Assembly: GCF_017877135.1 (NCBI RefSeq)
Contig: NZ_JAGIPH010000003.1
Coordinates: 124,001 to 188,000, forward strand
Length of the DNA stretch: 64,000 bases
Source of the DNA: Neorhizobium galegae
Lineage (GTDB): Bacteria > Pseudomonadota > Alphaproteobacteria > Rhizobiales > Rhizobiaceae
Reading direction: 5' to 3'
Of this stretch, positions 1 through 28,751 are shown one piece after another. A program made the translations under genes and the position numbers. A model generated the notes under the pieces. The model did not search any database, was not told the origin of the DNA, and was given only the letters and a program-made list of their open reading frames with translations. Within the stretch, counting starts at the first letter, position 1. Each line of letters begins with the position of its first letter.

Positions 1-3000
1 CCGACGGCATTGCCTCCAGCGGCACGGCAACCCTTTCCGGTTCTTCCAGTGAATGGAACAATACCGGCATTCTGAGCGTCGGCGGCGGCGGCATTGGCAG
101 CCTGACGATCGAGAACGGCGCAACGATGAACAATAACGGTGATTTCGCCATCGGCGGCCTGACCTCAAGCGCCGGTAGCAGCGTCTCCGTCACCGGGACG
201 GGGTCGACGCTGGACATCACCGGCGGCCTGATCGTCGGCAATGCCGGCAGCGCCACGCTAACCGTGGAGGATGAGGCGACGGTGACGAGTGCCAGCGCCC
301 TGATCGGTCGTCATTCCGCAAGTTCCGCCACCGTCACCGGTTCCGGCTCGTCCTGGTCCACCGGCGCACTGGTCATCGGCGGTGACAGCGGAGATGCCAG
401 CGGCACGCTGGGCGAGGGCACGCTGACGATCTCGGATGGGGGCGCGGTCAGCAGCACATCGGCACGGCTCGGCGATGTCTTCGGAGCTGAGGGCTCGCTG
501 ATTGTCGATGGCGCTCTCTCCGGCTGGACGATTACCGGCGGCAATCTCGAAATCGGAAGCTCCGGCACGGGCTCAGTCACGATCCGCAACGGCGCGACGC
601 TCAGCTCCGCCAATGCAATCCTTGGCCAGAATGCCAATGCCAGCGGCACGGCGACCATCACCGGCACCGGCAGTTCCTGGACTGCCAGCGGCAATATCTA
701 TGTCGGCAATGGCGGCGATGGTGACCTCTCGGTGCGTGCGGGCGCCACTGTCAGCAGCGACGCCGGCTATGTCGGCACGATGGCCGGCTCCAATTCGTCT
801 GTCACGATTGACGGATCGGGGTCCGAATGGACCATGACGTCCCCCTTCATCGCCGGTTACAATGGCAATGCGACGGTGACGCTCAGCAATGGTGGCCGCA
901 TCAGCGCGCTTCAGGGCACGCTCGGGGATCTCGCCGGATCGACCGGTACGATGACCGTGACCGGCACGGGTTCCCAATGGAACGCCTTCGTCGACAACAG
1001 CATCGCCTATTCCGGATATATGAATGTCGGCCGCTTCGGAGACGGGGCTCTGACTGTTTCCGATGGCGGCAGCGTGACCGGCTACCGGCTCTATATCGGC
1101 AACGAGGCCGGCTCCAGCGGCACCGTGCTGCTGACGGGTGCGGGCTCGAAGGTCGACATGACGAGCCGCCTCTATATCGGCGCCGACGGTGACGGCGCAC
1201 TGACGCTGACGGACGGGGCGACGCTGAAGGCCGGCGATATCCGCATCGCCTACGCGGCAGGCATTACGGGCACGCTCAACATCGGGGCGGCATCCGGGCA
1301 GGCGGCCGCAACAGCCGGCACGCTCGACACCAGCGCCATCGAATTCGGCGACGGCACCGGCACGCTGGTGCTCAACCATACGGGCAGCGCCTACGACCTC
1401 TCGGCCGATATCAGCGGCGGCGGTCAGCTTCTCGTCGAAAGCGGGACGACGACCCTGTCCGGCGCCAATAGCTACAGCGGCGGCACGACGATTTCGGGCG
1501 GCACACTGATCGGCACCTCGGGCAGCAGTTTCGGCACGGGTGCCATCGTCAACAATGGCGCACTGGTGGTGAACGGCAGCGGCGAGTTGTCCAACGACAT
1601 GTCCGGCTCCGGCTCCTTCGAAAAGGCCGGCAGCGGCACGCTCACCCTTTCGGGCACCAACACCTATACCGGTGGCACGACGATCTCCGGCGGCACGCTG
1701 GCGGTGACGACCACCAGCCTCTTTGGCAATGTCGCCAATTACGGCACGCTGCTCTTCGATCAGGCAACCGACGGCACCTTCGCCGGCGATATTTCCGGCA
1801 CCGGTAATCTCGTCAAGGACGGCACTGGCGTCGTGACCCTCACCGGCAACCTGACCTATAGCGGCACCACCACGGTCCTGGCCGGCAAGCTCATCGGCAA
1901 CACCTCGACGCTCGGCGGCTCGGTCATCAACGAAGGCCGCCTTGAATTCGATCAGGCCTTCGACGGCACCTATAGCAGCGTGATCTCGGGTTCCGGCAGC
2001 GTGCTGAAGACCGGAGCCGGTGATCTGACGCTGACGAGTGCCAACACCTATACCGGCGGCACGACGATTTCCGCAGGCGTTCTCACCGGCAATGCTGACA
2101 GTTTCGGCACCGGCGCCATCGTCGATGACGCAGCCCTTGTGGTCAACGGCGCCGGAACCTTCTCCAATGCCGTTTCAGGCACCGGCACCTTCGAAAAGGC
2201 GGGCTCCGGCAAGCTAATCGTCACCGGTGCAAACACCTATACGGGCTCGACGCTGGTGTCAGGCGGCACGCTCTCCATCAACGGCAGCCTGACCAGTGCG
2301 GTGACGGTGGGCAATGGCGCAACGCTTGGCGGCATTGGTTCGACGGGCGGGATTTCCCTGCTCTCCGGCGCGACGCTTGCGCCCGGCAACTCCATCGGAA
2401 CGCTGACGGTGAATGGCAATGCCAGCTTCGCCAACGGCTCGACCTATGCGGTGGAGGTCGACAGCCTCGGCGCATCCGATCGTCTCTCGGCAAGCGGAGC
2501 GGTCACGATCGGCAATGGCGTCACGCTTGCCGTGACGCCGGAGAACGGCACCGACACCGGCGCAACCTATGCCCTCAACACGCAATACACGATCATCACC
2601 GCGGCGGGCGGCGTCACCGGCCTGTTCGACAGCGTAACGGAAAATTTTGCCTTCCTGACGGCGGCAGTCGACAAGAGCGCGGACAATACGGCCGTTTACC
2701 TGACGCTCAATCGGACGACCGCCGATCCCGGTGCCTTTGCCGCAGCCACGTCGACGCCCAATGCCCGGGCGGCCGCCAATGCCGTCGAGGCGCTGGGGTC
2801 TGGGGCAACGCTTTACGACAAGGTGCTCTACCTGACGACCAATGAAACCCAGCAGGCCTTCTCGCAGTTGTCCGGCGAACTGCACCCGTCCGTCAGCGCC
2901 TCGCTCCTGGAGCGCAGCCGCCTCAGCCGCGATACCATCCTTAACCGCCTGCGGGATGCCTTTGCACCGCAGGATCCGTCGGAATCTGGCATCGCTGGCC

Positions 3001-3863
3001 AAAGCCAGGGGAACGGCGAGGCGATCCTGCCTCAGGCGCAAGGCGTGACGGTCTGGTCGAGCGGTCTCGGTTCCTGGAGCCGTTACGGGTCGGATGGCAA
3101 CGGTTCCACCATCGACGTCAATGGCGGCGGCGTCATGCTCGGCGCCGATACCGTCCTCGACAATCAGTGGCGCTTTGGTCTGGCGGGCGGCTACGGCCAG
3201 GACCGTGTGGCGGAAAACGCGCTCAACGCATCGGCGGATGTGGATAGCTACTACATCGCGGCCTATGGTGGAACGACCATCGGTCCAGCCTCCATCCGCT
3301 TCGGTGCGATCCATGCCTTCCAGGATGTCGACAGCCGTCGAAACATTTCCTTCTCCACCTTCAGCGACAGTCTGAAGGCCGATTACGACGCATCGACCAG
3401 CCAGATCTTTGCGGAAGGCGCCTGGCGCTTCGACCTCGACCAGGCGCATGTCGAGCCCTATGCGAACCTTGCTTACGTCAACACCAGGACGGACGGTTTT
3501 GCCGAGACCGGCGGCGCGGCCACCCTCTCGTCAGCCTCGCGCCATGACGAGCAGGTCTATTCCACGCTCGGCGTCCGGGTCGGCCGCGACATCGCCGTCG
3601 AGACCATGCGCGGCAATGTGACGGCGGGTGTCGGCTGGCGTCATGCCTTCAGCGATACGACGTCAGAAGCTGCGCTTGCCTATGCCGGCGCCGGCAGCTT
3701 TACCGTCGCAAGCACCGGGACTGCGCGCGATGCGCTGCTGCTCAATCTCTCGGTGGGTTTCAATCCGGCTGAAAACGTCAATGTGTCGCTCGGCTATGAC
3801 GCCCTCCTGGCAAATGGCGTCGACGAGCACTCGGCCATGGCCAAGGTGGGGGTCAAGTTCTGA
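1..3863 (+). CDS. Autotransporter (type Va secretion), 5'-truncated by the window edge
   Basis: The frame is open from base 3, upstream of the first ATG at 126, so the true start and signal peptide lie outside the window. The passenger is built of Gly/Ser/Thr-rich beta-strand repeats. The first third has repeats of the form G-T-G-S-x-W followed by I-V-G-N/D. Then come about five PATR-type repeats (autotransporter-associated beta strand, TYTGGTTISGGTL-like), and then the linker with LAPGNSIGTLTVNGN. The last roughly 270 residues form the outer-membrane beta-barrel, starting near VTVWSSGLGSW and ending in the terminal phenylalanine of VGVKF, as expected for BAM recognition. The passenger should be a long surface-exposed beta-helix; adhesion is likely but not shown. 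No catalytic domain is visible in the part present. A second autotransporter with a similar linker and barrel lies at 45.5-48.7 kb. Confidence 0.93.
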   Translation, partial: DGIASSGTATLSGSSSEWNNTGILSVGGGGIGSLTIENGATMNNNGDFAIGGLTSSAGSSVSVTGTGSTLDITGGLIVGNAGSATLTVEDEATVTSASALIGRHSASSATVTGSGSSWSTGALVIGGDSGDASGTLGEGTLTISDGGAVSSTSARLGDVFGAEGSLIVDGALSGWTITGGNLEIGSSGTGSVTIRNGATLSSANAILGQNANASGTATITGTGSSWTASGNIYVGNGGDGDLSVRAGATVSSDAGYVGTMAGSNSSVTIDGSGSEWTMTSPFIAGYNGNATVTLSNGGRISALQGTLGDLAGSTGTMTVTGTGSQWNAFVDNSIAYSGYMNVGRFGDGALTVSDGGSVTGYRLYIGNEAGSSGTVLLTGAGSKVDMTSRLYIGADGDGALTLTDGATLKAGDIRIAYAAGITGTLNIGAASGQAAATAGTLDTSAIEFGDGTGTLVLNHTGSAYDLSADISGGGQLLVESGTTTLSGANSYSGGTTISGGTLIGTSGSSFGTGAIVNNGALVVNGSGELSNDMSGSGSFEKAGSGTLTLSGTNTYTGGTTISGGTLAVTTTSLFGNVANYGTLLFDQATDGTFAGDISGTGNLVKDGTGVVTLTGNLTYSGTTTVLAGKLIGNTSTLGGSVINEGRLEFDQAFDGTYSSVISGSGSVLKTGAGDLTLTSANTYTGGTTISAGVLTGNADSFGTGAIVDDAALVVNGAGTFSNAVSGTGTFEKAGSGKLIVTGANTYTGSTLVSGGTLSINGSLTSAVTVGNGATLGGIGSTGGISLLSGATLAPGNSIGTLTVNGNASFANGSTYAVEVDSLGASDRLSASGAVTIGNGVTLAVTPENGTDTGATYALNTQYTIITAAGGVTGLFDSVTENFAFLTAAVDKSADNTAVYLTLNRTTADPGAFAAATSTPNARAAANAVEALGSGATLYDKVLYLTTNETQQAFSQLSGELHPSVSASLLERSRLSRDTILNRLRDAFAPQDPSESGIAGQSQGNGEAILPQAQGVTVWSSGLGSWSRYGSDGNGSTIDVNGGGVMLGADTVLDNQWRFGLAGGYGQDRVAENALNASADVDSYYIAAYGGTTIGPASIRFGAIHAFQDVDSRRNISFSTFSDSLKADYDASTSQIFAEGAWRFDLDQAHVEPYANLAYVNTRTDGFAETGGAATLSSASRHDEQVYSTLGVRVGRDIAVETMRGNVTAGVGWRHAFSDTTSEAALAYAGAGSFTVASTGTARDALLLNLSVGFNPAENVNVSLGYDALLANGVDEHSAMAKVGVKF

Positions 3864-4092
3864 AGCGGGCCATCGCGGCTGACGTCTGCCTGATACTATC
3901 CACCGCGCTGAGATGACCGTCCGGGTGCAGGCATCTCGCCACGCGCATGACTGCGGACGGTCGCTGACTCCAATTCATGAGCCCGTGCGCGATGGAGCGT
4001 CTGACGATGGCGTCTGCCCCGAAGGCCGCAGGTTAGGGCGCTCGCGGATGGTCCGGCCCAAGCACCGGTCCCTTCAAGAGGCCACGTGCTCG

Positions 4093-4929
4093 TCACGACA
4101 CTTGGAGGGTTCTCACATATTCTGCGGTTTGATGCGCATGGATGCGCGTAAACCTGATCAGCTGGTCGAAGTGACGCTGCATCTTTCGGATGGAGTCGGC
4201 ATTGTTAAGCACAAGATACATTCCGCCCACGAAGATCGCGGCGCGCTGAGAGCCGAAAATCGTGTAGGGAACGGAAAAACGCTCTTTTTCGTCGAACAGG
4301 AACAGGCGAAACGAGGGGTAGAGCTCGTTGATCAGGCTGGCCATGTATTGCAGCTGTTCGGCGCGGACATCACGTTTCAGGCCGCTCCACATGCCGCGCC
4401 CCTGCGCGAAGGCTTGCAGCGTCTCCTGCGGCATGCACACTTCCATATCCGTGCCGGGCTGACGATTATAATCGAGACGGAAGGCCGTTTCGCTTGTCTG
4501 CGCCTTCACGCTCTGATGGGCGGAATCGGCCTCGAAGGCGATGATTTCCGGCGTGCGAAGAAGATCCGGGATACGGGCAGGGACATAGCGGATCTTGGAG
4601 CCGGTCGCCTCGGCATGCCATTTCATGAGCAGCGTCTCGGTATAATCCTCGCCGCCCTCCTCGATCTCGAAGCTCGGCCGCAACTCTCCCGTCAGGCCCG
4701 GATCGTGCGAGATGCCGAGAAGCCAGTCCAGCGACACCGAATGGCGCTCCGCAATCTTGAGAAGGGTTTCCACCCGCGGCAGACGCGCCGAACTGCCGGA
4801 GAGGAGCTGTGACAGCGCGGACCGGTCGATGCCGATCCCGTCTGCGAAGGCGGAGTGGCTGGCGCCGGACCGGGTCACGAGCTCGATCAACCGGATGCGG
4901 AAAAGCTCCGAGAGCGCGCGCTTGTCCAT
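4093..4929 (-). CDS. XRE-family helix-turn-helix transcriptional regulator
   Basis: A 278-residue DNA-binding protein. The N-terminal 65 residues form a Cro/CI-type HTH (SHSAFADGIGIDRSALSQLLSG, LPRVETLLKIA). A longer C-terminal domain of about 200 residues follows; I do not recognise it, but it probably has a sensory or oligomerisation role. An in-frame ATG 12 bases upstream (4941) has no ribosome binding site and directly abuts the palindrome at 4943-4958. ATG 4929 is preceded by GGGG and is preferred. The gene is divergent from the desaturase operon. The perfect palindrome between them makes autoregulation and control of the desaturase likely (inference). Confidence 0.85.
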   Translation of the reverse strand: MDKRALSELFRIRLIELVTRSGASHSAFADGIGIDRSALSQLLSGSSARLPRVETLLKIAERHSVSLDWLLGISHDPGLTGELRPSFEIEEGGEDYTETLLMKWHAEATGSKIRYVPARIPDLLRTPEIIAFEADSAHQSVKAQTSETAFRLDYNRQPGTDMEVCMPQETLQAFAQGRGMWSGLKRDVRAEQLQYMASLINELYPSFRLFLFDEKERFSVPYTIFGSQRAAIFVGGMYLVLNNADSIRKMQRHFDQLIRFTRIHAHQTAEYVRTLQVS

Positions 4930-4942
4930 AAATAACCCCATT

Positions 4943-4958
4943 GTTTACTATAGTAAAC
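4943..4958. promoter_or_regulatory. Perfect 16-bp palindrome, candidate operator
   Basis: GTTTACTATAGTAAAC is a perfect inverted repeat in the 130-bp divergent interval between the XRE regulator and the desaturase. It lies 14 bases upstream of the regulator's preferred start. A second, weaker dyad (GTTG, 7-base spacer, CAAC) lies at 4973-4987. It is most simply the operator of the adjacent regulator. Confidence 0.65.
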
Positions 4959-5062: not shown

Positions 5063-6103
5063 ATGAGCGACATTTCCTTCCGGAGTTCGAAGCTTCTTTT
5101 CCATCGGGAGCGATCAAGCGCGTTGAAAATTGAGTGGCCAACGGTCGCGCTGCTTGTCGCCTGCTACGGCCTCTGGTGGGTGGCGGGATATGTCCTTTAT
5201 CCTGCCGCTCCCATCGTCGCACTGGTGCTGATCGGGATCACCATTGCCTTGCATTCGTCGCTGCAGCATGAGGTTCTGCATGGACATCCGACACGCAGCG
5301 TAGGGCTGAACGAGGCGCTGGTCTTTGCGCCTCTGGGCGTCTTCTATCCCTATCGCAGCTACAAGCGGACCCACATCCAGCACCATGAGGATGAGCGCCT
5401 GACCGACCCCTTCGACGATCCGGAAAGCTATTATCGCGCGCTGAAGGACTGGGAGGCGATGCCCGCCGTCCTGAAGCGTCTGCTGGTCTGGAACAACACA
5501 CTGATCGGGCGCATGCTGCTCGGACCGCCGTTGATGGTCGTCGGGTTTACCGCGTCGGAGTGGCTTAAGATCATGAAGGGCGATCGCCAGGTCATGGTCG
5601 CGTGGGTCCTCCATGTCTTGGGGCTCATCCCGACACTGCTGGTCGTGTCCCTTGTGTTCGGTATCCCGGTCTGGCTTTACATCGGCGTCTCCGCCTATCT
5701 CGGGCTCTCCATCATTGCGCTGCGGTCCTATTGCGAGCACCAATGGTCCGAGCGGCCGGATGGACGCACGATCATTGTCGAGACCTCGCTGCTTGCACCG
5801 CTCTTCCTCTACAACAACCTGCACTTCATCCATCACAAGCTGCCGTCCGCTGCCTGGTACAGGCTGCCTTCGCTCTACAGAGCCAGACGCGCCGAATGGC
5901 AGGCGATGAATGATGGCTATGTCTTTGCCAACTATTTCGAGGTTTTTCGCGCTTTCTCGTTCAAGGCAAAGGAGCCCGTTGTGCACCCTGTGTTGCGGCG
6001 GGACGAACACGCCGTCGCAGCTCATCCGGCCGCGAATGAACAGGTCGATGCCGCGGAGCATCGCATGGCCGGTCTTGCCCTCTTGCCGGATCTTTCGCTG
6101 TGA
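5063..6103 (+). CDS. Membrane fatty acid desaturase/hydroxylase family protein
   Basis: A 346-residue integral membrane di-iron enzyme of the fatty acid desaturase superfamily. All three histidine boxes are present: HEVLH at residues 69-73, HIQHH at 104-108 and HFIHH at 254-258. Hydrophobic segments lie around residues 28-64 and 178-222, consistent with four membrane passes. It would introduce a double bond or hydroxyl group into a lipid or other hydrophobic substrate using O2 and an electron donor; the substrate cannot be read from sequence. AGGGG sits just upstream of the ATG. The stop codon overlaps the GTG start of the next gene (GTGA), so the two are probably translationally coupled and act together. 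Confidence 0.88.
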   Translation: MSDISFRSSKLLFHRERSSALKIEWPTVALLVACYGLWWVAGYVLYPAAPIVALVLIGITIALHSSLQHEVLHGHPTRSVGLNEALVFAPLGVFYPYRSYKRTHIQHHEDERLTDPFDDPESYYRALKDWEAMPAVLKRLLVWNNTLIGRMLLGPPLMVVGFTASEWLKIMKGDRQVMVAWVLHVLGLIPTLLVVSLVFGIPVWLYIGVSAYLGLSIIALRSYCEHQWSERPDGRTIIVETSLLAPLFLYNNLHFIHHKLPSAAWYRLPSLYRARRAEWQAMNDGYVFANYFEVFRAFSFKAKEPVVHPVLRRDEHAVAAHPAANEQVDAAEHRMAGLALLPDLSL

Positions 6104-6867
6104 GGTGGATCGCAGCACTTCCCATGTATGACTGGCCCGAGGTGCGCGATGAAACCGATGCCGCCTGGGTCAGGATGCGGAGAGGATTCCTCAAAGAGGG
6201 CATCGATGCGCCTCGAGATCTCGTTCGCCGCAATGGCGACATGCCGGCAGTTCCCGGGGGCATTCTTGGCGACGATGGTTCGGTCATCGCGCCGGATCCC
6301 GCGACGCTTGATCCTGATGCCTTTGATCTCGATGTTCTCTGGCGCCATCCGGCGCTGCTCGTTTCCCAAACCTGCTGGGGGCCGATGGAGCTTGGCTTGC
6401 AGGAGCATGTTCAGGTCCTTGGGCAAGACCGTTATGATGGGATCGCCGGTGGCGCGGGGGCGCTCTATTCCAGCGCCATCGTCGCCCACAAGGGGGAGGG
6501 GGTAAGCGCCGTTGCACCGGAGACCGGCGAGGCGCTCTTGCCGATTGAACTGTTCTGCGACAGGAAACTGGCCTTCAACGAGCACCGGTCGATGTCAGGC
6601 TATCTCGCCCTGAAGCGCGATCTGGAAGCCGCCGGTGAAAACCTCGACCTGTTTGCGGATGTGGTCGCAACGGGGGCGCATCGCGCATCGGTCATTGCCG
6701 TGGCCGATGGCAAGGCGGACTTTGCGGCGATCGACTGCAAATCCTGGCTGCTGGCGGAGCGGCATGAGCCGGCCGCGAAAGAGCTCCACGTCGTCGGCTG
6801 GACGGCACGGCGAGCGGGGCTGCCCTTCATCCGTGCCAAGCGGATCGACCTCGATTTTCTGATATAG
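6100..6867 (+). CDS. PhnD-like (phosphate/phosphonate-type periplasmic-binding fold) protein without signal peptide
   Basis: A 255-residue protein starting at GTG 6100, overlapping the desaturase stop. The N-terminus RWIAALPMYDWPEV, the central LVSQTCWGPME, LAFNEHRSMSGY and VVATGAHRASV, and the late LHVVGWTARRAGLPFI fit the phosphate/phosphonate substrate-binding fold (PhnD family). There is no hydrophobic leader: the fold begins at residue 1, so the protein is probably cytoplasmic or exported some other way. No permease or ATPase is adjacent. A phosphonate transport role is therefore doubtful. A ligand sensor or lipid-precursor binding partner of the desaturase is possible. An ATG at 6124 is an alternative start but would remove a conserved strand. 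Confidence 0.75.
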   Translation: MRWIAALPMYDWPEVRDETDAAWVRMRRGFLKEGIDAPRDLVRRNGDMPAVPGGILGDDGSVIAPDPATLDPDAFDLDVLWRHPALLVSQTCWGPMELGLQEHVQVLGQDRYDGIAGGAGALYSSAIVAHKGEGVSAVAPETGEALLPIELFCDRKLAFNEHRSMSGYLALKRDLEAAGENLDLFADVVATGAHRASVIAVADGKADFAAIDCKSWLLAERHEPAAKELHVVGWTARRAGLPFIRAKRIDLDFLI

Positions 6868-6893: not shown

Positions 6894-8381
6894 TCAGGGG
6901 GGCGGGGCACTCAGCGACAGAAGCAACCGGACCTTTTCCATGTCGGAGGAAATGGGCCGGTCGTCCGAATAATGGCGAACCTCAGCGCGAAGATGGCGGT
7001 AGAGCACATCCGTCCCCGGCGCACGTCGGGCCTGGGTTTCGAGGAAATCATGCGCCTGCGCGGCTGCCATCCATTCGATTGCCAGAATATATTCGGCATT
7101 GTCGAGGAGGGCGAGAAGCTTGTTGGCGGCAGCGGTCGGATGCGCGAGAAAATCCTCCTGCAGGCCGGAGGTCAGGCCGCCATCCGTCGAGGCGGGGGCG
7201 GCCAGCCGCCGGTTCTCGTTTGCAAGGGCCGCCGCCGTATATTGCGCAATCATGAAGCCGGAATGGCTGCCGGGATCGGAGGCGAGGAAGGGCGGCAACC
7301 CGCTCACCAAAGGATTGACGAGCCGGTCGATCCGCCGCTCGCTCATGGCGGCGATCTGCGTGATGGCAATCGCAAGCGCGTCGGCGGCTTGGGCCAGCGC
7401 CGGTGCCACCGCATGGGCTTCCGACCAGACAAGCGGCTCCTCCGGCGTGCCCGCAACCGCGGGGTTGTCGGTGACCGAGGCCAGTTCCCGGTCAACGATA
7501 GCCGCACAATTGTCAAAAAGATCGCGGGCAGCGCCATGGGCATGCGGGATGGAGCGCAGGCTGAGCGCATCCTGGGTACGCCTGCCCTGCGCCGCCTCGA
7601 TCAGCCCGCTGCCCTCAAGCCGCCCGCGCAAAGTCGCGCCAACGGCCGCGATCCCGTCGGACACGCGCAGCGACAGCACGGGTTCGCTGTAGGCCGGCAT
7701 CTGGCAGCCCGCCGCCTCAAGCGTCAGCGCGGCAATCGCATCGGCCCAATCCAGCAAACGGGCGGCGCGGTCGAGAGCCACGCTCGAAAGACCGGTGGCG
7801 CAGGCCGTTCCGTTGACGAGGCTCAGGCCCTCCTTGGCGCCCAGAACCAGCGGTTCAAGACCGATTTCGGCCAAGGCATCCCGCCCGCTCAAGGCGCGTC
7901 CGCCGATATGGGCAGAGCCTTCGCCGATCAGCACGAGGGCGGTGTGCGCATTGTGCGTCAGGTAGCCGGCCGATCCGCGGGAGGGCACATCCGGAATGCA
8001 GTCGCGCTCCAGAAAGGTCGCCAGATGGGCAACGACCTGCCTGCGAACTCCGGAATAGCCGTGGGCGAAATTGGCGATCTGCGACGCGATGATGGCGCGT
8101 ACCTCCCGGCGCGGCAGAAGCGTGCCCACGCCGCAGGCGTGGCTGAGAAGGATGCTGCGCGACATCTTGCTCTGCGCGCCGCGATCCACCACCGTGTCCG
8201 ACAGGGCGCCGACGCCGGTGTTGATGCCATAGGCGCGGATGCCGCGCTCGACGATACTTTCGACGATCCGGTGGGCGTTGTCGATGCGGTGCCAGGCGGC
8301 TTCTGAAAGCGCAAGTCCATCGCCTTTACTCACCCGCGCCACATCCTGCCAGGTCAGCGTGTCATTGAGCAGCACGGTCAT
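6894..8381 (-). CDS. Aromatic amino acid lyase (HutH/PAL) homologue lacking the MIO triad; candidate ergothionase-like lyase
   Basis: A 495-residue member of the histidine/phenylalanine ammonia-lyase superfamily. Conserved family features are YGINTGVG (Tyr51), KEGLSLVNGT, VTDNPAV, QYTAAALANEN and QEDFLAHPTAAANK. The segment that normally reads GSVG-ASG-DL reads GSAG-YLT-H here (residues 136-143). The Ala-Ser-Gly that cyclises to the MIO electrophile is therefore replaced by Tyr140-Leu141-Thr142; I confirmed this on the nucleotides. Ordinary deamination of histidine is unlikely. Ergothionase, which eliminates trimethylamine from ergothioneine, is a family relative reported to act without MIO, and the adjacent betaine-type importer fits that. 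The start ATG 8381 has AGGAAA upstream; an earlier ATG at 8429 lacks support. Last gene of the leftward cluster. Confidence 0.8.
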   Translation of the reverse strand: MTVLLNDTLTWQDVARVSKGDGLALSEAAWHRIDNAHRIVESIVERGIRAYGINTGVGALSDTVVDRGAQSKMSRSILLSHACGVGTLLPRREVRAIIASQIANFAHGYSGVRRQVVAHLATFLERDCIPDVPSRGSAGYLTHNAHTALVLIGEGSAHIGGRALSGRDALAEIGLEPLVLGAKEGLSLVNGTACATGLSSVALDRAARLLDWADAIAALTLEAAGCQMPAYSEPVLSLRVSDGIAAVGATLRGRLEGSGLIEAAQGRRTQDALSLRSIPHAHGAARDLFDNCAAIVDRELASVTDNPAVAGTPEEPLVWSEAHAVAPALAQAADALAIAITQIAAMSERRIDRLVNPLVSGLPPFLASDPGSHSGFMIAQYTAAALANENRRLAAPASTDGGLTSGLQEDFLAHPTAAANKLLALLDNAEYILAIEWMAAAQAHDFLETQARRAPGTDVLYRHLRAEVRHYSDDRPISSDMEKVRLLLSLSAPPP

Positions 8382-8465
8382 GGGATTTCCTGAATTCAAT
8401 TTAGGGAAGGGTAGTCGACTGTCGTTCACGGTCAGGCGATTGCCCTTCCTGAACCGACCGGAGGA

Positions 8466-9206
8466 TCAGGTGCTGTAGAGGCGATAGCGGCTGCCCGGAT
8501 AGAGCAGGCGAACCGAGGAAATGACGCCGCCTTGCGACCAGGTGCGGCGCCGAACCAGAAGGCAGGGTTCCGTCTTGGAGATTGCCAGCAGCTTGCATTC
8601 CCAGGGCTGCGCCGTCACCGCCTCGATATGTTGCTCGGCTCTTACGATCGGCGCCACGGCGGTCAGATATCCGTTGGGCGTCGTCCTTGCGAAATCCTGG
8701 TCGATATAGTGCGGCACGATCGCATGGTTGACGAACCGGTCCTCGATCTGCATTGGAAGGGAATCTTCCGCATGGACCATGATCGAATGGGACACCGGGC
8801 TGCCGATCTCGATGGCGAGCGCGTCCGCCAGTTGCGCATCGGCGGTTTCCATGCGCAGAGCGATCACGTTTGCCGTATGGACGCCACCATTACGGGTGAT
8901 CTCGTCGGCAATATTGGGAACGCTCTGGAACTGGGATGTTCGCTTCTTGCTGGCAACGAAGGACCCCTTGCCCTGCACGCGGACAAGAAACCCTTCATCC
9001 GCCAGTTCGCGCAAGGCACGATTGGCGGTCATGCGGCTGACGCCGAGCAGGTCGACCAGTTCGTTTTCCGAAGGCACTCTCTGCCCGATGGACCACTCGC
9101 CGGTCTCGACGCGGCTTCTAACATAATCCTTGAGCGTGACGTAAAGCGGCTTGTCGGATGCTTGCTCGTCCCGCGCCTTTTCGACCTGGTTCTCTACCGT
9201 TTGCAT
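8466..9206 (-). CDS. GntR-family regulator, HutC-like (UTRA domain)
   Basis: About 246 residues. The N-terminal winged helix carries the GntR signature (GQRVPSENELVDLLGVSRMTA, ANRALRELADEGFL) in residues 20-85. The remaining part is a UTRA ligand-binding domain with the HutC-like ending LLVRRRTWSQGGVISSVRL and GSRYRLYS. HutC proteins repress histidine utilisation genes and respond to urocanate. A family member beside a HutH-like lyase suggests that a urocanate-like product (for example thiourocanate) is the inducer; this is inference. ATG 9206 (QTVENQVEK) gives the usual family length; the frame runs open to 9326 but without a better start. Confidence 0.87.
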   Translation of the reverse strand: MQTVENQVEKARDEQASDKPLYVTLKDYVRSRVETGEWSIGQRVPSENELVDLLGVSRMTANRALRELADEGFLVRVQGKGSFVASKKRTSQFQSVPNIADEITRNGGVHTANVIALRMETADAQLADALAIEIGSPVSHSIMVHAEDSLPMQIEDRFVNHAIVPHYIDQDFARTTPNGYLTAVAPIVRAEQHIEAVTAQPWECKLLAISKTEPCLLVRRRTWSQGGVISSVRLLYPGSRYRLYST

Positions 9207-9262
9207 GAGGCTCCACAAAGCGAACGACAAGGGTTCGGCATCTGACACATCTTCAGCGCGTG

Positions 9263-9290
9263 CGCGGGTATGGTGAGTGCCATACCCGCG
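9263..9290. terminator. Strong hairpin between binding-protein gene and hutC-like gene
   Basis: An 11-bp perfect stem (CGCGGGTATGG / CCATACCCGCG) with a 6-base loop, starting 9 bases beyond the stop of the binding-protein gene. No T-run follows in either direction, so it may be an mRNA-stabilising or attenuating hairpin within the operon rather than a full terminator. Confidence 0.5.
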
Positions 9291-9298
9291 AAGCTCGG

Positions 9299-10213
9299 TC
9301 AGTTCAACTTGTGTTTCGCCAGCCACTCGCCGGCAACGACGTCGAAGCTGTCGTGATTGGCCAAACGACCGTTCATGACGATCAGGTCCTCGGTCGTCAA
9401 AGCGGCAGACACGGCATCGAGCGTCTTCGTCACGACGTCGCTGACCTTTGCCTTGGCAATGACCGGCACGATGTTCTGGGCCGGAAACAGGTTCTTGACG
9501 TCTTCGAGGATGACCAGTTTGTTGTCCGCAATCGCCGGGTCTGTCGAGAACAGGTTTGCCGCCTGGACCTGGTCATTCACCAGTGCCGAAAGCGTCAGCG
9601 GGCCGCCGACATCGAGCGACTTGAACGACTTGAACTCAAGGCCGTAAAGTTCCTTCAGGCCGATGATGCCTTCCTTGCGCGTCTTCCATTCCGGAGGACC
9701 GCCCAGCACCAGCTGGGACGCAACCGGTGCGAGATCGGCAATCGTCTTCAGCTTGTACTTCTCGGCAGTCGCGCGGGTGACGGCGACACCGTCGGAATCC
9801 TGCGCCTGCGACGGCGTCAGCATCGAAACGCCGGCCGGCAGAGCGGCTTTCAGAGCCTTGGCGACGTCTTCCGGCGAATGCGCCGTTGCGTTCTTGTCGA
9901 GATAGCTCAACGTCGCGCCGGCATATTCCGGCAGGAGGTCGATCGACCCGTCGAGAAGCGCCGGCATGTAAACCTCACGGCTGCCGATGTTCAGTTTGGT
10001 GTCGGTCTTGATGCCCTTTGCCGCAAGCGCCTTGGCATAGATGGTAGCCAGAAGCTGGCTCTCCGGGAAATCCGCCGAGCCGACGATGATGGTGGTCTTG
10101 TCGGTGCGCGCGGCCGGAGCAGCCCCGAGCGGATCGGTCTGGGCAAGCGTCGTGGTGGCGGAAAGCGCCATCAGCGCAAACGCGCCGGCGGCCTTTAAGA
10201 TACTGAATGCCAT
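9299..10213 (-). CDS. Osmoprotectant/betaine-type ABC transporter substrate-binding protein (OpuAC/ProX-like)
   Basis: A 304-residue periplasmic protein with an N-terminal Sec signal (about 25 residues, ending near TTTLAQ). A choline/glycine-betaine-type binding domain follows (IIVGSADFPESQLLATIYAKAL, LLPEYAGATLSYLD, VDVVTKTLDAVSAALTTEDL-like C-terminus). OpuC-type proteins bind quaternary ammonium compounds; the ergothioneine-binding EgtU belongs to the same fold. It is the fourth gene of a leftward unit (ATPase, permease, permease, binding protein) and is separated from the permease by 65 bases. The specificity proposed here rests on the adjacent lyase and HutC-like regulator, not on residues I can verify. 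Confidence 0.88.
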   Translation of the reverse strand: MAFSILKAAGAFALMALSATTTLAQTDPLGAAPAARTDKTTIIVGSADFPESQLLATIYAKALAAKGIKTDTKLNIGSREVYMPALLDGSIDLLPEYAGATLSYLDKNATAHSPEDVAKALKAALPAGVSMLTPSQAQDSDGVAVTRATAEKYKLKTIADLAPVASQLVLGGPPEWKTRKEGIIGLKELYGLEFKSFKSLDVGGPLTLSALVNDQVQAANLFSTDPAIADNKLVILEDVKNLFPAQNIVPVIAKAKVSDVVTKTLDAVSAALTTEDLIVMNGRLANHDSFDVVAGEWLAKHKLN

Positions 10214-10278: not shown

Positions 10279-10950
10279 CTAGAGCCGGCGGGTGAGGCCC
10301 GGTGAGACTGTCAGCCTGGACAGGATGCCGATTGCCAGATCGACGAGGAGGGCCAGAGCGCCGACCAGGACGGCACCCGCCGCCATCTGGTAGTAATCGT
10401 TCTGGGCGCGGCCATCGATGATGAGGCGCCCGAGCCCGCCCAGCGAAACGTAAGCGGCAATGGTTGCCGTCGATATGATCTGCAGCGTCGCGCTGCGCAG
10501 CCCGGAGAAGATCAGCGGCAAGGCGCAGGGAAGTTCGACATCGAAGAGAATGTCGAGCGGGCGTTTGCCCATGCCGCGCGCCGCATCCACTGCGGCCGGG
10601 TCCACCGCCGCAACGCCGGCATAGGTTCCGCTCATGATCGGCGGCACGGCAAGCAGGACAAGCACGATGATGCTCGGCACGATGAAGGCCATGTCGGAGG
10701 TAAAGACAGGCCCGAACAGGATCACCAGAAGAACGATGAGGCCAAGGCTTGGCAGCGAGCGCAAGGCATTGGCAAGTCCGGCGATCAGGACGACGCCGCG
10801 GCCCGTATGCCCGACGTAGAGTCCGATCGGCAAGCCGATCAGGCAGGCGAAGAAAAGCGCGACCCCGCTATAGATCAGATGCTGGATGACAAGCGCGAAC
10901 ACCCCGTCGCTTCCCGTCCAATGGGTCGGGTCTGAAAACCATGCAATCAT
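10279..10950 (-). CDS. Betaine/osmoprotectant ABC transporter permease (OpuCB/OpuCD-like, second)
   Basis: A 223-residue inner-membrane permease with about five to six hydrophobic helices. It carries the BPD-transport EAA-like loop around GMGKRPLDILFDVELPCALPLI, and SLPSLGLIVLLV is typical of the family. ATG 10950 starts within ATGA, overlapping the stop of the preceding permease gene (10947-10950). Together with the partner permease it would form a heterodimeric channel for the compound bound by the adjacent periplasmic protein. Confidence 0.9.
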   Translation of the reverse strand: MIAWFSDPTHWTGSDGVFALVIQHLIYSGVALFFACLIGLPIGLYVGHTGRGVVLIAGLANALRSLPSLGLIVLLVILFGPVFTSDMAFIVPSIIVLVLLAVPPIMSGTYAGVAAVDPAAVDAARGMGKRPLDILFDVELPCALPLIFSGLRSATLQIISTATIAAYVSLGGLGRLIIDGRAQNDYYQMAAGAVLVGALALLVDLAIGILSRLTVSPGLTRRL

Positions 10951-11597
10951 CGCTCGGCACCTCCCGGCTGCCAGGGTGTCATGCGTTTGGCGGCAAAAAG
11001 GACAAGACCGTCCAGCAGTGCGGCAAGCAGCACGCAAAGCACGATCCCGGCAATGATGGGCGTGAGGAACCGCAGTTGAAGCCCCTGCGTGAACAGCAGC
11101 CCGAGCTGCGGCGTGCCGATCAGGGCGGCGACCGAGACGATGCTGACATTGGAGACAACAGCCACCCGCAGCCCCGCCGCAATCACCGGAACGGCAAGGG
11201 GAAGTTCGACGACGAAGAGGCGTGGCAGCCTGCGATAGCCCATGGCATTGGCCGCCTGGATGACATCCGGGGGGACAGACTCAAGGCCGTCGCTGACCGT
11301 GCGCACCAGAAGCGCGAGCGCGTAGACCGTGAGCGCCACGACCACATTCATGGGATCGAGAATACGCGTGCCGAGCACAAGCGGCAGGAGCACGAAGAGC
11401 GCCAGGGACGGAATTGTATAGAGCAAGCCTGCCGCACCCAGCAGGGTCGAGCGGAAGAACCCCGCCCGTTGCGCAAGCCATCCCAGCGGCAGAGCAAGCA
11501 GCAATCCGATCACCACGGGGATCACGGACAGCCCGAGGTGCCAGAGAAAGAGTTCGGCGATGCGGCCGGACTCGCGGTAGAGCCAGTCGAACCTCAT
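10947..11597 (-). CDS. Betaine/osmoprotectant ABC transporter permease (first)
   Basis: A 216-residue permease, paralogous in design to its downstream neighbour: hydrophobic helices, LLYTIPSLALFVLL, and the EAA-type loop AMGYRRLPRLFVVELPLAVPVI. It starts at ATG 11597, sharing ATGA with the stop of the ATPase gene, and ends in ATGA with the next permease. Reading frames open further upstream on this strand are only a shadow of the ATPase gene. It is a component of the candidate histidine-betaine importer. Confidence 0.9.
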   Translation of the reverse strand: MRFDWLYRESGRIAELFLWHLGLSVIPVVIGLLLALPLGWLAQRAGFFRSTLLGAAGLLYTIPSLALFVLLPLVLGTRILDPMNVVVALTVYALALLVRTVSDGLESVPPDVIQAANAMGYRRLPRLFVVELPLAVPVIAAGLRVAVVSNVSIVSVAALIGTPQLGLLFTQGLQLRFLTPIIAGIVLCVLLAALLDGLVLFAAKRMTPWQPGGAER

Positions 11598-12709
11598 GGC
11601 TGCGTCCCCATGCGACCGGTGCGCGCAGCTTCGATGGCTTCGGCAACATGCGACAGCGTCACGGTTCCCATCAACTCGCCGGACTGCCCGACGATGACAC
11701 CACGGCCGGACGGAGAACTGAGCGCCGCGTCGAGAACATGCCGCAGGCTGCTGCCTTCGACGGCCAGCGTGCCGCTGAGGTTGAGGTCGCCGTCCCGCAA
11801 GGGGCCTTTGACGCTGTCGACATCCGCCCAGCCCAGCGGCCGGTTCATGGAATCCGCAACGAGGACCCATCTGTCCGTGGCAATCTGGCGAAGGGTTTCG
11901 GGAGTGGCGCCAAGCGTTGCCGTCGGCTCGGCTCCGAGCGGCACGCCGCCCTTGGCGAATTCGGCAAAGCCAAGCACGCGATAACCGCGGTCACGCCCGA
12001 TGAAATCGGCGACGAAGTCGTCCGCCGGTCTTGCCAGCAGTTCCTGCGGGGTCGCAACCTGTGCCAGCGTGCCGCCGGTGCGCAGAACGACCACCTGGTC
12101 TCCCAGTTTCAGAGCCTCGTCGATGTCATGCGTGACCATGATGATGGTCTTGCCGATGTCCCGCTGCAGCCGGAGAAACTCGTCCTGCAATTGCCCGCGC
12201 ACGACCGGATCGACGGCGCTGAACGGTTCATCCATCAGCATGAATTTCGGATCGGACGCCAGGGCGCGGGCAACGCCCACGCGCTGCTGCTGGCCGCCGG
12301 AAAGCTGCCATGGATAGCGATTGGCGAAAGCGGAGGACAGCCCGACACGCTCCAGGAGCTCATGGGCGATGCGCAGTGCCTGATCCTTGGGGGTCCCGTT
12401 CAGCCGCGCGGTGGTTGCGATATTCTGCGCGACGGTGCGATGCGGAAAAAGACCCGCATTTTGAATGACGTATCCGATCTTTCGGCGCAGCACGGCGACA
12501 TCCATCGTGTCCGTCGGTTCGCCATCCAGAAGAATTCTGCCCGAAGAGGGCGCAATCAGGCGGTTCACCATCCGCAGCGAGGTGGTTTTGCCGCAACCGG
12601 ACGGGCCGACGAAAATCGTCAGCTTCCCGCTGGGCGCTGTCAGCGACAGCTTGTCGACAGCAACTGTCTGGCCCCGATAGTGCTTGCTGACGGCATCAAA
12701 TGTGATCAT
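11594..12709 (-). CDS. Betaine/osmoprotectant ABC transporter ATP-binding protein (ProV/OpuCA-like)
   Basis: A 371-residue cytoplasmic ATPase with Walker A GPSGCGKT (residues 35-42), Q-loop near YVIQNAGLFPH, signature LSGGQ (136-140) and Walker B FMLMDEP (156-162). About 130 residues follow after position 245 and match the paired CBS-domain tail of OpuCA/ProV proteins (ATDRWVLVADS..., GRGVIVGQSGELMGTVT). In those proteins the CBS tail senses ionic strength or nucleotides. It is the first gene of the leftward unit; ATG 12709 was chosen because the ATPase fold (ITFDAVSKHY) begins there. A HutC-like operator lies about 60 bases upstream. Confidence 0.92.
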   Translation of the reverse strand: MITFDAVSKHYRGQTVAVDKLSLTAPSGKLTIFVGPSGCGKTTSLRMVNRLIAPSSGRILLDGEPTDTMDVAVLRRKIGYVIQNAGLFPHRTVAQNIATTARLNGTPKDQALRIAHELLERVGLSSAFANRYPWQLSGGQQQRVGVARALASDPKFMLMDEPFSAVDPVVRGQLQDEFLRLQRDIGKTIIMVTHDIDEALKLGDQVVVLRTGGTLAQVATPQELLARPADDFVADFIGRDRGYRVLGFAEFAKGGVPLGAEPTATLGATPETLRQIATDRWVLVADSMNRPLGWADVDSVKGPLRDGDLNLSGTLAVEGSSLRHVLDAALSSPSGRGVIVGQSGELMGTVTLSHVAEAIEAARTGRMGTQP

Positions 12710-12766: not shown

Positions 12767-12778
12767 TTGTCTATACAA
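12767..12778. promoter_or_regulatory. HutC/GntR-type operator upstream of the betaine importer
   Basis: TTGTCTATACAA is an inverted repeat (TTGT...ACAA) resembling the HutC operator core, which I recall as CTTGTATGTACAAG. It sits 58 bases upstream of the ATPase start, where a repressor site is expected, and the only GntR/HutC-type gene in the window is in the same unit. I saw no second copy upstream of the lyase or the regulator. Confidence 0.55.
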
Positions 12779-18212: not shown

Positions 18213-19283
18213 ATGACGGCATCATCGACCTACCTCTGGTACATCCCGAACGTCGCCAAGGGAGGCCATCGTGGCGATACCACGACGACCGATCTCGGCG
18301 GCCTCGACACGCTGACGGCGCAGGCCGAGGCACTGGAGCAGAACGGCTGGCAGGGGGCGCTGATCGGAACCGGCTGGGGCCGGCCGGACACGTTCACCGT
18401 CGCCACCGCGCTTGCGGCACGCACGAAGTCGTTCGAGCCGCTGATCGCGATCCGCCCCGGTTACTGGCGCCCGGCGCATTTCGCATCGGCAGCCGCAAGC
18501 CTCGACCGGCTGAGCGGCGGCCGTGTGCGCGTCAATATCGTCTCCGGCCAGGATGATCTCGCAGCCTATGGCGATGTCGAGCAGGACCAAGCGCAGCGTT
18601 ACGCCCGCACCCGCGAATTCATGCGGCTGGTGCGGCGGCTCTGGACCGAGGAGGCGGTGACCTTCGAGGGCGAGCATTTCCAGGTGCGCAATTCCACGGT
18701 CGAGCCCCGTATTGAGGCACGCGACGGCCGCCCGCACCCCAAACTCTATTTCGGCGGTGCATCCGATGCGGCAGAACGGGTCGCCGCGTCAGAAGCCGAT
18801 GTGCAGCTCTTCTGGGGTGAACCTCTGGCAGGTGTGGCAGAACGCATCGACCGGCTGAAGATGCTAAGCAGGACGCTGGACCGCGACCTGCCACCGCTCG
18901 AATTCGGGCTGCGGATCACCACCGTGGTGCGCGAGACGCGGGAAGCCGCCTGGGCGGATGCCGAGGCGAAGGTGGAGCAGATGGCCAAGGGCGCCGGCGG
19001 CAACTGGCAGGATCATCGCGGCCCGGTTGCCGTCGGTCAGCAGCGGCTTCTCGATCTGGCCGCGCGCGGCGATGTCCTCGATGACAATCTTTATACCGCA
19101 CCCGGCCGGTTCGGCGGCGGCGGGGCCGGAACGACCTGGCTCGTCGGCTCGGCCGAGGACGTGGCCGCCTCGCTTAGAAAATACCGTGATCTCGGGATCA
19201 GCCATTTCGTTCTGTCGGACACGCCGTATCTCACGGAAATCGCCCGGCAGGGACAGACGCTTCTGCCGCTCCTGCGCGCCTGA
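18213..19283 (+). CDS. LLM-class flavin-dependent monooxygenase (SsuD/SfnG-type)
   Basis: A 356-residue luciferase-like enzyme related to but divergent from SsuD: WYIPNVAKGGHRGD, LIAIRPGYWRPAHFA, ASLDRLSGGRVRVNIVSG, PKLYFGGASDAAERVAASEADVQLFWGEP. It probably oxidises a different sulfonate, sulfone or sulfinate with FMNH2 and O2. Last gene of the ssuD operon, 32 bases after the permease. It converges on the bisC-like gene, with a hairpin between them. Confidence 0.87.
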   Translation: MTASSTYLWYIPNVAKGGHRGDTTTTDLGGLDTLTAQAEALEQNGWQGALIGTGWGRPDTFTVATALAARTKSFEPLIAIRPGYWRPAHFASAAASLDRLSGGRVRVNIVSGQDDLAAYGDVEQDQAQRYARTREFMRLVRRLWTEEAVTFEGEHFQVRNSTVEPRIEARDGRPHPKLYFGGASDAAERVAASEADVQLFWGEPLAGVAERIDRLKMLSRTLDRDLPPLEFGLRITTVVRETREAAWADAEAKVEQMAKGAGGNWQDHRGPVAVGQQRLLDLAARGDVLDDNLYTAPGRFGGGGAGTTWLVGSAEDVAASLRKYRDLGISHFVLSDTPYLTEIARQGQTLLPLLRA

Positions 19284-19314
19284 ACGCATTGCAATGTGCA
19301 GGATCCGTTCGTCT

Positions 19315-19336
19315 GCCAGCGGCTGAAACCGCTGGC
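19315..19336. terminator. Hairpin between convergent operons
   Basis: A perfect 8-bp stem (GCCAGCGG / CCGCTGGC) with a 6-base loop in the 79-base gap between convergent genes. It could serve as a bidirectional terminator, though no strong T-tract is present. Confidence 0.45.
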
Positions 19337-19362
19337 GACATCGATGTGGGGAAGGTGGCCTG

Positions 19363-21735: not shown

Positions 21736-23108
21736 GCCGGCAGTATCTTGCCGGGGTTCATGATGTCGAGCGGATCAATCGCCTGTTTGATCACGCGCAT
21801 CAGGTCCACGGCCTCGCCATGCTCTGCACGCAGATAATCGATCTTGCCGGTGCCGATGCCATGTTCGCCCGTCGAGGTGCCGCCGAGCGACAGCGCCTTC
21901 AGCACCATCTTCTTGTTGATCGCCGCAACCGCTGCCAGTTCCTCGGTATTGTCGGGGTCGATGGCGAAGACGACATGATAGTTGCCGTCGCCGACATGGC
22001 CGAGGATCGCGGTGGGAACGGGGCAGGTGGCGAGAAGTTCGCGCGTGAAGCGGATGCATTCGGCGAGCGCCGACACCGGCACGCAGACATCCGAGGACCA
22101 GCCGCGGGCACCCGGCCGCTGCGAGACAACGGCATAGAAGGCATTGTGGCGCGCTTTCCAAAGGCGGTTGCGCTCCTCGGATGTCGTAGCCGAGGCAAAA
22201 GCCCGTCCGCCATTCTCGGCGGCAATCGCTGCCACCTGCTCGATCTGCTCCAGCGTCGAGGCCGGCGAGCCGTGGAACTCGAAGGCCAGCGTATCTTCGA
22301 CGGCAAGCAACAGGCCGGCATGGCGGTTGACGGCTTCGATCAGCCCGCGATCCATGAATTCCATGCGCGCGACGGGAATACCGAGCTGGATGACGGCAAC
22401 GGCCGTATCGATCGCCTGCGCGGTATCGGCAAACGAGCAGAGCGCGGCGGTCGTGCTTTCCGGAATGCCGTAGAGCCGCAATGTGACCTCGGTGATGATG
22501 CCGAGCGTCCCTTCGGATCCGACGAACAGCCGGGTGAGATCATAACCGGCCGACGATTTGCGCGCCCGCCCGCCGACCCGGATCACCTGGCCACTCGGCA
22601 GCACCACCGTGAGGGAGAGCACGTTTTCACGCATCGTACCGTAGCGGACGGCATTCGTACCGGATGCCCGCGTCGCGGCCATGCCGCCTAGGGTGGCGTT
22701 GGCGCCCGGATCGATGGGAAAGAACAGACCGCGGTCGCGAAGCCAACTGTTCAGGGCTTCGCGCGTGACGCCGGCCTCCACGGTGCAGTCCAGATCCTCG
22801 GGGCTTACCCTGAGGATGCGGTTCATGGCGGACAGATCGATCGATACTCCACCTTTTACTGCAGAGAGATGGCCCTCCAGCGAGGTGCCGGCGCCGAAGG
22901 CGATGACGGGGACCTGATGGGTGGCACACAGGCGCACGATGAAAGAGACATCGTCCGTGCTTTCGGCAAACACCACCGCATCCGGAGCGGCGGCCGCATG
23001 ATAGGATTCACCGCGACCATGCTGTTGGCGAAGGGCTTCGCCCTGGGAAAACCGGTCACCGAAGCGAGCCGTCAGGGCTGCGGCAAGATCCGGGGCAAGG
23101 CTGCTCAT
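21732..23108 (-). CDS. FAD-binding oxidase, GlcD/D-lactate dehydrogenase family
   Basis: A 458-residue flavoenzyme of the FAD_binding_4 / FAD-oxidase C type. The FAD site is VPVIAFGAGTSLEGH, DPGANATLGGMAATRASGTNAVRYG and GSEGTLGIITEVTLRL; the C-terminal HVGDGNYHVVF and GTSTGEHGIG-K match the GlcD/Dld cap. It oxidises a 2-hydroxy acid (D-lactate, glycolate or similar), passing electrons to a quinone or cytochrome. ATG 23108 overlaps the stop of the sulfurtransferase gene (ATGA). In this operon it could oxidise the hydroxy acid left from sulfur-compound cleavage, which is inference. Confidence 0.87.
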   Translation of the reverse strand: MSSLAPDLAAALTARFGDRFSQGEALRQQHGRGESYHAAAAPDAVVFAESTDDVSFIVRLCATHQVPVIAFGAGTSLEGHLSAVKGGVSIDLSAMNRILRVSPEDLDCTVEAGVTREALNSWLRDRGLFFPIDPGANATLGGMAATRASGTNAVRYGTMRENVLSLTVVLPSGQVIRVGGRARKSSAGYDLTRLFVGSEGTLGIITEVTLRLYGIPESTTAALCSFADTAQAIDTAVAVIQLGIPVARMEFMDRGLIEAVNRHAGLLLAVEDTLAFEFHGSPASTLEQIEQVAAIAAENGGRAFASATTSEERNRLWKARHNAFYAVVSQRPGARGWSSDVCVPVSALAECIRFTRELLATCPVPTAILGHVGDGNYHVVFAIDPDNTEELAAVAAINKKMVLKALSLGGTSTGEHGIGTGKIDYLRAEHGEAVDLMRVIKQAIDPLDIMNPGKILPA

Positions 23109-23977: not shown

Positions 23978-24005
23978 GGTCTGTCTCGTCAAGCGGGAGG
24001 AAAAA

Positions 24006-25186: not shown

Positions 25187-25260
25187 TGTGTCTGTCCTGG
25201 TGCTCCGCGCTCGGCGCTCTCAACGGAAGGGGGCCGCCCTTTCGCCTCGTGGTGACGATG

Positions 25261-26235: not shown

Positions 26236-26285
26236 GGGATCATGTCTTGACGGGAGGAGGTGATGGCGGTGAAACGGAAAAGAGC

Positions 26286-27458: not shown

Positions 27459-27566
27459 CGGCAGAGGCCCTTTCAAAATGACCTAAAATTGGCTGCCGCC
27501 CCTTGAGGAGAGGAGGCATCGAGAAAAAGGTTTCCGGCAGATATCCCTCCTGCCGGAAACAAAGGC

Positions 27567-28670: not shown

Positions 28671-28733
28671 CTGACGAGGTCTCCATTCCGATTGCCGAGC
28701 GATAGGGTCAGGCTAAGGGGCTGAACATCTAGG

Positions 28734-28751
28734 AGAAAGACAGGTCTTTCT
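28734..28751. promoter_or_regulatory. Perfect 8-bp inverted repeat (AGAAAGAC-AG-GTCTTTCT), candidate operator
   Basis: It lies in the 155-base gap upstream of the LLM/SfnB-like series. A close variant with 15 of 18 identical bases (AGAAAGACTGGTTATTCT) lies at 35358-35375, upstream of the peptide-type importer. A shared regulator of the two transcription units is likely. Confidence 0.55.

Follow-up and report, generated by a model that had tools for sequence, protein, structure and literature searches.

The window analysed here is a stretch of 64,000 nucleotides of the Neorhizobium galegae genome (contig NZ_JAGIPH010000003.1), and it carries a minus-strand operon that ends in a gene for a HutH paralogue without the MIO triad. 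The operon starts with an ABC ATPase of the ProV/OpuC type (11594-12709; PF00005), followed by two ABC permeases (10947-11600 and 10279-10950; both PF00528), a periplasmic binding protein of the OpuAC family (9299-10213; PF04069), a HutC-type repressor with GntR and UTRA domains (8466-9326) and, last, the lyase (6894-8429). The starts of the ATPase (MITFDAV) and of the permeases were chosen by hand, the longest reading frames extending to 12814 for the ATPase, to 11870 for the permease adjoining it and to 11037 for the other. The best NCBIfam match of the ATPase is TIGR01186 proV at 296 bits, below the cut-off of 326.6. The repressor matches TIGR02018 his_ut_repres at 281 bits (cut-off 220). 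Downstream, a PF12974-like protein is encoded convergently to the lyase (6100-6867, plus strand), next to an FA_desaturase-family protein (5063-6103, plus strand) and an HTH_3 (XRE-type) regulator (4093-4941, minus strand). These neighbours are conserved, with all three genes present in the same 8 of the 10 other loci that carry this transporter type.

The lyase has 511 residues from a GTG at 8429, or 495 from the ATG at 8381 (Met17). It belongs to the aromatic amino acid lyase superfamily by profile and by fold. The PF00221 match is full-length and scores 470 bits against a curated cut-off of 27.3. An AlphaFold2 model built on 24 alignment rows (mean pLDDT 86.8) has the overall HutH fold, with P. 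putida HutH as the best Foldseek match and TM-scores of 0.86-0.89 to HutH structures. The score to the HutH family model TIGR01225 (455 bits) falls below the equivalog cut-off of 539.15. Around 7956-7964 the lyase reads VPSRGSAGYLTHNAHTALVLIGEG, with the core GSAG-YLT-HNAH. The minus-strand codons of Tyr156-Leu157-Thr158 occupy exactly 7956-7964, the site of Ala-Ser-Gly-Asp-Leu-Ala in HutH. The initial annotation had put GSAGYLT at this place and had listed YGINTGVG, NGT and QEDF as retained landmarks, all of which are found in the lyase. Its numbering of the stretch as residues 136-142 is right for the Met17 start (MTVLLND...), and from the GTG start the same stretch is 152-158. Its description of Ala-Ser-Gly as replaced by Tyr-Leu-Thr has to be revised, as the alignment shows three residues fewer than in P. 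putida HutH at GSAGYLTHNAH, which is a deletion and not a substitution. The gap can be placed so that Tyr-Leu-Thr stand in the HutH Asp-Leu-Ala columns, or so that Tyr156 stands in the Ala column with Ser-Gly-Asp gapped. In the model, a helix starts at Tyr156. A triad shifted elsewhere had been named as what would overturn the missing motif, and a search over all 511 residues recovered no Ala-Ser-Gly. The class was sampled with 117 distinct sequence strings, a few of them partial copies of a single gene. An ASG occurs in 25 of these, at scattered positions away from the triad site. Since the lyase is without Ala-Ser-Gly, MIO should not form. An ordinary ASG-bearing HutH is encoded on another contig of the same genome.

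The deletion is shared widely. In a scan of named GTDB genomes, GS[AV]GYL is found in all 80 loci kept out of 578 confirmed relatives, with members from Agrobacterium, Rhizobium, Mesorhizobium, Phyllobacterium and others. Among 60 related genomes (own included, 36 of them of the same genus), the lyase occurs in 11, all of the same genus; the relatives are 57-95% identical and all 11 same-genus copies show GS[AV]GYL. Copies with at least 44% identity are present in 23 of 398 evenly drawn Pseudomonadota genomes, 22 with GS[AV]GYL and one (L149) with GSVGYI. A plasmid of Burkholderia pyrrocinia carries a copy with 57% identity. Judged by this conservation, the deletion is a family trait, neither chance nor a sequencing error. 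Purifying selection is indicated by a dN/dS of about 0.1 (0.09-0.15) against five relatives, and together with the retained active-site positions it upholds the earlier statement that the gene is not decayed. Public plasmid records label members of the class as histidine ammonia-lyase. The label is probably wrong, since the MIO-making residues are absent.

The catalytic frame of HutH is largely kept around the gap. Active-site positions (P. putida HutH numbering) were compared between 58 thinned class rows (54 window-type, three Klebsiella-type and the outlier L241) and 17 HutH. The long proteins L245 and L246, with a GCAD motif, were left out of the table, and L126 and five PAL-like ASG rows were kept outside the HutH group. 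Tyr53, His83, Gln277, Arg283, Met382 and Glu414 are retained in all 58 class rows. Asn195 is retained in 54/54 window-type rows and is Gly or Ser in the three Klebsiella-type rows. The window lyase itself has Tyr53, His83, Asn195, Gln277, Arg283 and Glu414, whose catalytic roles we take to be those in HutH. What differs is the surroundings of MIO, at positions 280, 329 and 386. Tyr280, Phe329 and Asp145 neighbour MIO in HutH, and structure titles show that P. putida HutH mutants at all three have been solved. Tyr280 is Leu in 57 of the 58 class rows, and Phe329 is Ala or Pro in all 54 window-type rows. At position 386, all 58 class rows have Tyr, whereas all 17 HutH have Val and all eight rows of a class with a one-residue deletion, including ergothionase, have Lys. 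Both tyrosine motifs are found in 117/117 class strings. L241 has Tyr at 386, yet keeps Tyr280 and Phe329. Leu at 280 is also found in 8/8 one-deletion rows, so that a bulky residue next to MIO has changed in parallel in the two classes.

MIO-less chemistry within this fold is already known from ergothionase. Ergothionase, here represented by the Treponema denticola enzyme (6s7j, 6s7q), is reported to be MIO-free (PMC13405746), a trait that the window lyase would share given its missing triad. The two have a common fold (the lyase model matches 6s7j with a TM-score of 0.87) and Leu at position 280. Ergothionase, in contrast, has a one-residue deletion (SSIGEGDI), Lys386, a retained Phe329 and changes at 382 and 413, where the lyase keeps the HutH-like Met382 and Gln413. 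The identity between them is 28%, and the lyase scores 176 bits to 6s7j versus 226-310 to HutH chains. To P. putida HutH (1b8f), the lyase is similar in fold, length, hut context and the retained positions including Met382; it differs in the lost Ala-Ser-Gly, Tyr280 to Leu, Phe329 to Ala and Val386 to Tyr, at 37% identity. The one-deletion class comprises 6s7j, the only member of known activity, and seven related proteins with Lys at 386, and it is not uniform, as six of the seven have Arg at His83. Such HutH paralogues one triad residue short, with Lys386, occur in rhizobia and others (L232 at 3301-4950, L233-L238 and L240) and read GSIGAADL, GSIGAGDL or GSLGAADL; L245 and L246 read GSIGCADI. 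L240, which lies near a window-class gene in genome G364, has 6s7j as its best PDB match (268 bits versus 238 for the best HutH). Several MIO-less classes coexist within one genus.

In the tree, the ASG proteins, the window class with the Klebsiella-type and the one-deletion class each fall on one side of a branch (supports of 91, 87 and 100), the second tree having been thinned again and holding none of L241, L126, L245 and L246, after near-copies had already been thinned in the first. In the first tree, 6s7j joined L245 and L246 and not the other one-deletion rows, and L241 was placed beside an ASG protein via a long-branch join. A single loss of MIO is possible on this tree, with the long branches of 6s7j, L241 and L245/L246 making its deeper part unsafe. 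In view of L241, more than one origin of the deletion is possible.

Regulation ties the operon to histidine and urocanate utilisation. A putative HutC operator, TTGTATAGACAA, lies at 12767-12778 on the minus strand, 69 nt upstream of the ATPase start. Upstream of the first gene it is found unchanged in 11/11 loci of the Agrobacterium type, the window's own among them, at distances of 67-73 nt, and it occurs once in the 5.2-Mb genome. Among 40 relatives, the word is present in six genomes, and in the two whose site was inspected (own and G011) it lies at this operon; four of the 40 contain the reversed control word, which puts the chance expectation at roughly 0.1 per genome. Across 249 loci, some of them overlapping, TTGTATAGACAA is found in 26, versus a mean of 0.09 and a maximum of 3 matches in 300 letter shuffles. 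It precedes hutU, divergent hutH/hutC, hutH, and the lyase operons L124, L196 and L198 outside Rhizobiales. In 61/61 Rhizobiales loci with the amino-acid-type transporter (a few of them duplicates), the 300 nt preceding the binding-protein gene contain no TTGTNNNNACAA word, while 5/6 others have one. HutC is the repressor of histidine and urocanate utilisation genes (PMC12977541), and that of P. aeruginosa is treated there and in PMC12772324. With a HutC gene and a shared operator of predicted function, the window's operon would belong to the HutC/urocanate regulon. By comparison across loci, the lyase class appears tied to this regulon, although the operator was not found at Rhizobium-type loci.

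The gene content of the genomes points in the same direction. Urocanase is encoded in 23/23 lyase genomes versus 154/398 overall (hypergeometric 1e-10, kinship ignored), and by genus in 13/13 versus 94/212 (1.6e-5, kinship likewise ignored). Six of the 11 same-genus lyase genomes have a single urocanase, so that a dedicated urocanase paralogue is not needed. A urocanase linked specifically to the lyase was considered and rejected, as second urocanases occur both with and without the lyase. Canonical ASG HutH is present in 31/32 lyase genomes, which suggests that plain histidine is already served. The exception is G364, which has no canonical HutH and carries a PAL-like ASG protein, a one-deletion protein and a window-class gene in a hut operon. 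In this operon (L194), the window-class lyase lies near the one-deletion lyase and a binding protein with the aromatic cage discussed below. In five genomes of genus code g134, which appear to be Pseudomonas-like, the ASG-less gene adjoins canonical hutH within the hut operon (L186, L188, L189, L191, L192). The hut locus of P. fluorescens SBW25 reportedly has two hutH copies, one of them said to be non-functional, which would fit the ASG-less class. The second hutH of Pseudomonas hut loci forms the same tandem as the ASG-less copies here, a likeness of arrangement only. For Pseudomonas sp. J380, two hutH copies are reported, both up-regulated with hutU under iron limitation (PMC8069873).

A distant ASG-less group is found on Klebsiella plasmids, with 37% identity to the window lyase. 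The lyase of plasmid OW970024.1 (L125, 7001-8533) reads GSVGYLIATAH and lies in a hut-like island with an annotated urocanate hydratase, an imidazolonepropionase, genes matching parts of other hut operons and an OpuC-type transporter. The transporter had led to this island being considered as an ergothioneine system, an idea that was dropped, and the island is now taken for a hut-type operon that carries an ASG-less lyase. The L125 lyase occurs at no less than 90% identity in 164 plasmid records, and a search for the Klebsiella-type lyase in the 60 relatives at E 1e-110, run with no positive control, returned none. Members in Sodalis and Rhizobium are about 59-70% identical to the Klebsiella-type lyase. 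In both (L201, 6983-11383; L202, 8965-13427), the lyase is followed by genes for a CoA transferase, a 3-hydroxyacyl-CoA dehydrogenase and an enoyl-CoA hydratase, which suggests a CoA route for an unsaturated acid. Two of the three Klebsiella-type clusters carry CoA enzymes rather than urocanase.

The importers give a further view of the ligand, and they come in two types. The binding pocket of EgtUC is described in PMC9732360, with Glu375 and Arg379 holding imidazole and carboxylate, a cage of Asn339, Tyr341 and Tyr443, and Lys242/Gly244 as further determinants. Set against this account and EgtU structure 7txl, the OpuAC-family binding protein of the window keeps the equivalents of Glu375 and Arg379, but the cage positions Asn339, Tyr341 and Tyr443 are occupied by Asp, Asp and Gln, and Lys242/Gly244 are lost. 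The window protein hence lacks the cage, Lys242 and Gly244 of an EgtU-type ergothioneine importer. The cage loss (Asp, Asp, Gln) is common to all 10 aligned lyase-linked binding proteins of this type, the alignment taking in 6/10 other Agrobacterium-type loci. The cage residues are kept in Lmo1422 and in the L194 binding protein near the one-deletion lyase. No OpuAC-type binding protein was recovered from the Pseudomonas-like hut operons L182, L186, L188, L189, L191 and L197, which fall outside the pocket comparison. Most Rhizobium loci have the other, amino-acid-type transporter. Its binding proteins carry Arg77 and Asp161, a pair that we liken to that of HisJ, in 67/67 loci (a few of them from duplicate genomes), plus Asp160 and Asp69. 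The Arg/Asp pair would also suit unsubstituted histidine. Assuming that importer and lyase share their ligand, both types suggest an amine with a proton left on it, and their predicted pockets argue against ergothioneine and, less firmly, against hercynine.

Comparison of sequences establishes the conserved deletion, the retention of active-site positions and the regulon tie, and from these we infer that the lyase is most likely, at about an even chance, an MIO-independent branch of the HutH family that forms urocanate by eliminating a substituted amine from a histidine carrying an N-modification. After the precise in-frame loss of Ala-Ser-Gly, and with it MIO, the enzyme would perform a cofactor-free 1,2-elimination on a histidine with a substituted alpha-amine. 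MIO bonds a primary amine. A substituted amine would be unable to bond it and would leave as a bulkier amine, which would account for MIO being dispensable, for the enlarged space around it and for a gene that accompanies HutH rather than replacing it. Tyr67 (HutH Tyr53) might act as the base, Arg292 and Asn206 might bind the carboxylate, and the imidazole might be bound by His97, Met393 and Glu425, on the assumption that these roles carry over from HutH. The class-specific Tyr156 and Tyr397 could occupy the room left by MIO and assist the departing amine by stabilising or protonating it. The lyase may work by acid-base elimination similar to that of ergothionase. Urocanate, the expected product, would feed into the regular hut pathway and, through HutC, would be expected to induce the operon. 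The claim of the initial annotation that the enzyme must use a different chemistry stands as far as the missing triad goes. Non-classical chemistry would follow from it if the lyase catalyses anything, and "must" is too strong given a non-catalytic role, which is less likely. We know of no activity for any close relative.

The substrate may be any of several compounds. The candidates are histidines with one or more N-methyl groups, the betaine hercynine being the fully methylated case, and histidines with an opine-like or other N-alkyl group, with neither set firmly preferred. A bulky amine, trimethylamine among the options, would fit the active site; the importers look better suited to a secondary or tertiary amine in protonated form, or to histidine itself. 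Of the substrates suggested at the outset, ergothioneine is disfavoured by sequence class and binding protein, and hercynine and histidine are possible. Several observations run counter to the preferred reading, namely the cage-less importer with two Asp, the HisJ-like pair, G364, the Asn195 change and the CoA-enzyme clusters of the Klebsiella-type, L241 and the operator-less Rhizobiales loci.

A special case of the preferred reading, possible though clearly less probable, is a trimethylamine-lyase acting on hercynine (histidine betaine), with urocanate passed on to HutU. Quaternary ammonium groups leave readily and are unable to form a bond with MIO. Tyr280 is Leu as in ergothionase, whose leaving group is trimethylamine, the two extra tyrosines could provide cation-pi contacts, and both the hut wiring and the betaine-family (OpuC/ProV) transporter of Agrobacterium-type loci would suit such a substrate. 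The binding proteins weigh against it, as the cage is lost in all aligned rows of this type and kept near the one-deletion lyase of L194, and most Rhizobium loci use an amino-acid-type importer.

The main rivals of an N-modified histidine lyase are a non-catalytic partner of HutH and a backup histidase. As a pseudoenzyme, which seems unlikely, the protein would be a subunit, or a sensor of urocanate or histidine, that modulates canonical HutH. HutH active sites are shared between subunits, and the tandem with canonical hutH in some hut operons as well as the near-universal co-occurrence would be explained. The window lyase, however, is encoded on a different contig from hutH, in an operon that supplies it with a separate importer and regulator, and the invariant catalytic-type residues, joined by two new invariant tyrosines, also speak against a non-catalytic protein. 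Similarly improbable is an MIO-independent L-histidine ammonia-lyase, a second histidase. Retained imidazole and carboxylate positions, importers that look suited to a free amine and the absence of canonical HutH from G364 are consistent with it. It is opposed by the canonical HutH of nearly all lyase genomes and by the SBW25 copy reported as non-functional, and ammonia is a poor leaving group without MIO. An ergothionase or ergothioneine-sulfonate lyase, although compatible with the common fold and the MIO loss, is very doubtful given the other deletion type, Tyr instead of Lys at 386, HutH-like Met382 and Gln413, lower score to 6s7j, separate side of the tree, missing EgtU determinants and a urocanase paralogue that is not required, and on deletion type, position 386 and transporter pocket we reject it as the predicted identity of the lyase.

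The broader proposal is a second, MIO-free entrance to the hut pathway, to which we give slightly less than an even chance. A sister enzyme of HutH, widespread and in many cases equipped with a dedicated importer, would convert N-modified histidine to urocanate for HutU, with a Tyr-Tyr pair replacing MIO. The departing amine could be a methylated amine, an opine-type amino acid or similar. If true, MIO enzymes and ergothionase would be joined by a third kind of catalysis within the fold, and a textbook fold would have a cofactor-free mechanism. Rhizobia, agrobacteria, Burkholderia-like and other proteobacteria would then be users of a histidine derivative that has escaped recognition, and the presence of two hutH copies in some hut loci would be simply explained. 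Among the papers listed by a literature search, with subscription papers largely outside its scope, there was none on ASG-less HutH paralogues or on a hercynine-to-urocanate lyase. The fold and MIO-less chemistry are known, and a hut-wired class with the full ASG deletion and two new invariant tyrosines did not appear among these papers. NCBIfam, searched with the window, Burkholderia and Klebsiella-type proteins, returned only models whose cut-offs all three miss.

Elsewhere in the window, two large autotransporters with PATR repeats are encoded at 126-3863 and 45528-48731, the second with a passenger of the endonuclease/exonuclease/phosphatase family. The region 18213-35147 holds three luciferase-like monooxygenases, an acyl-CoA dehydrogenase-like protein, a molybdopterin oxidoreductase and a peptide-type ABC transporter, and at a guess might be a cluster for the scavenging of sulfonates or similar compounds.
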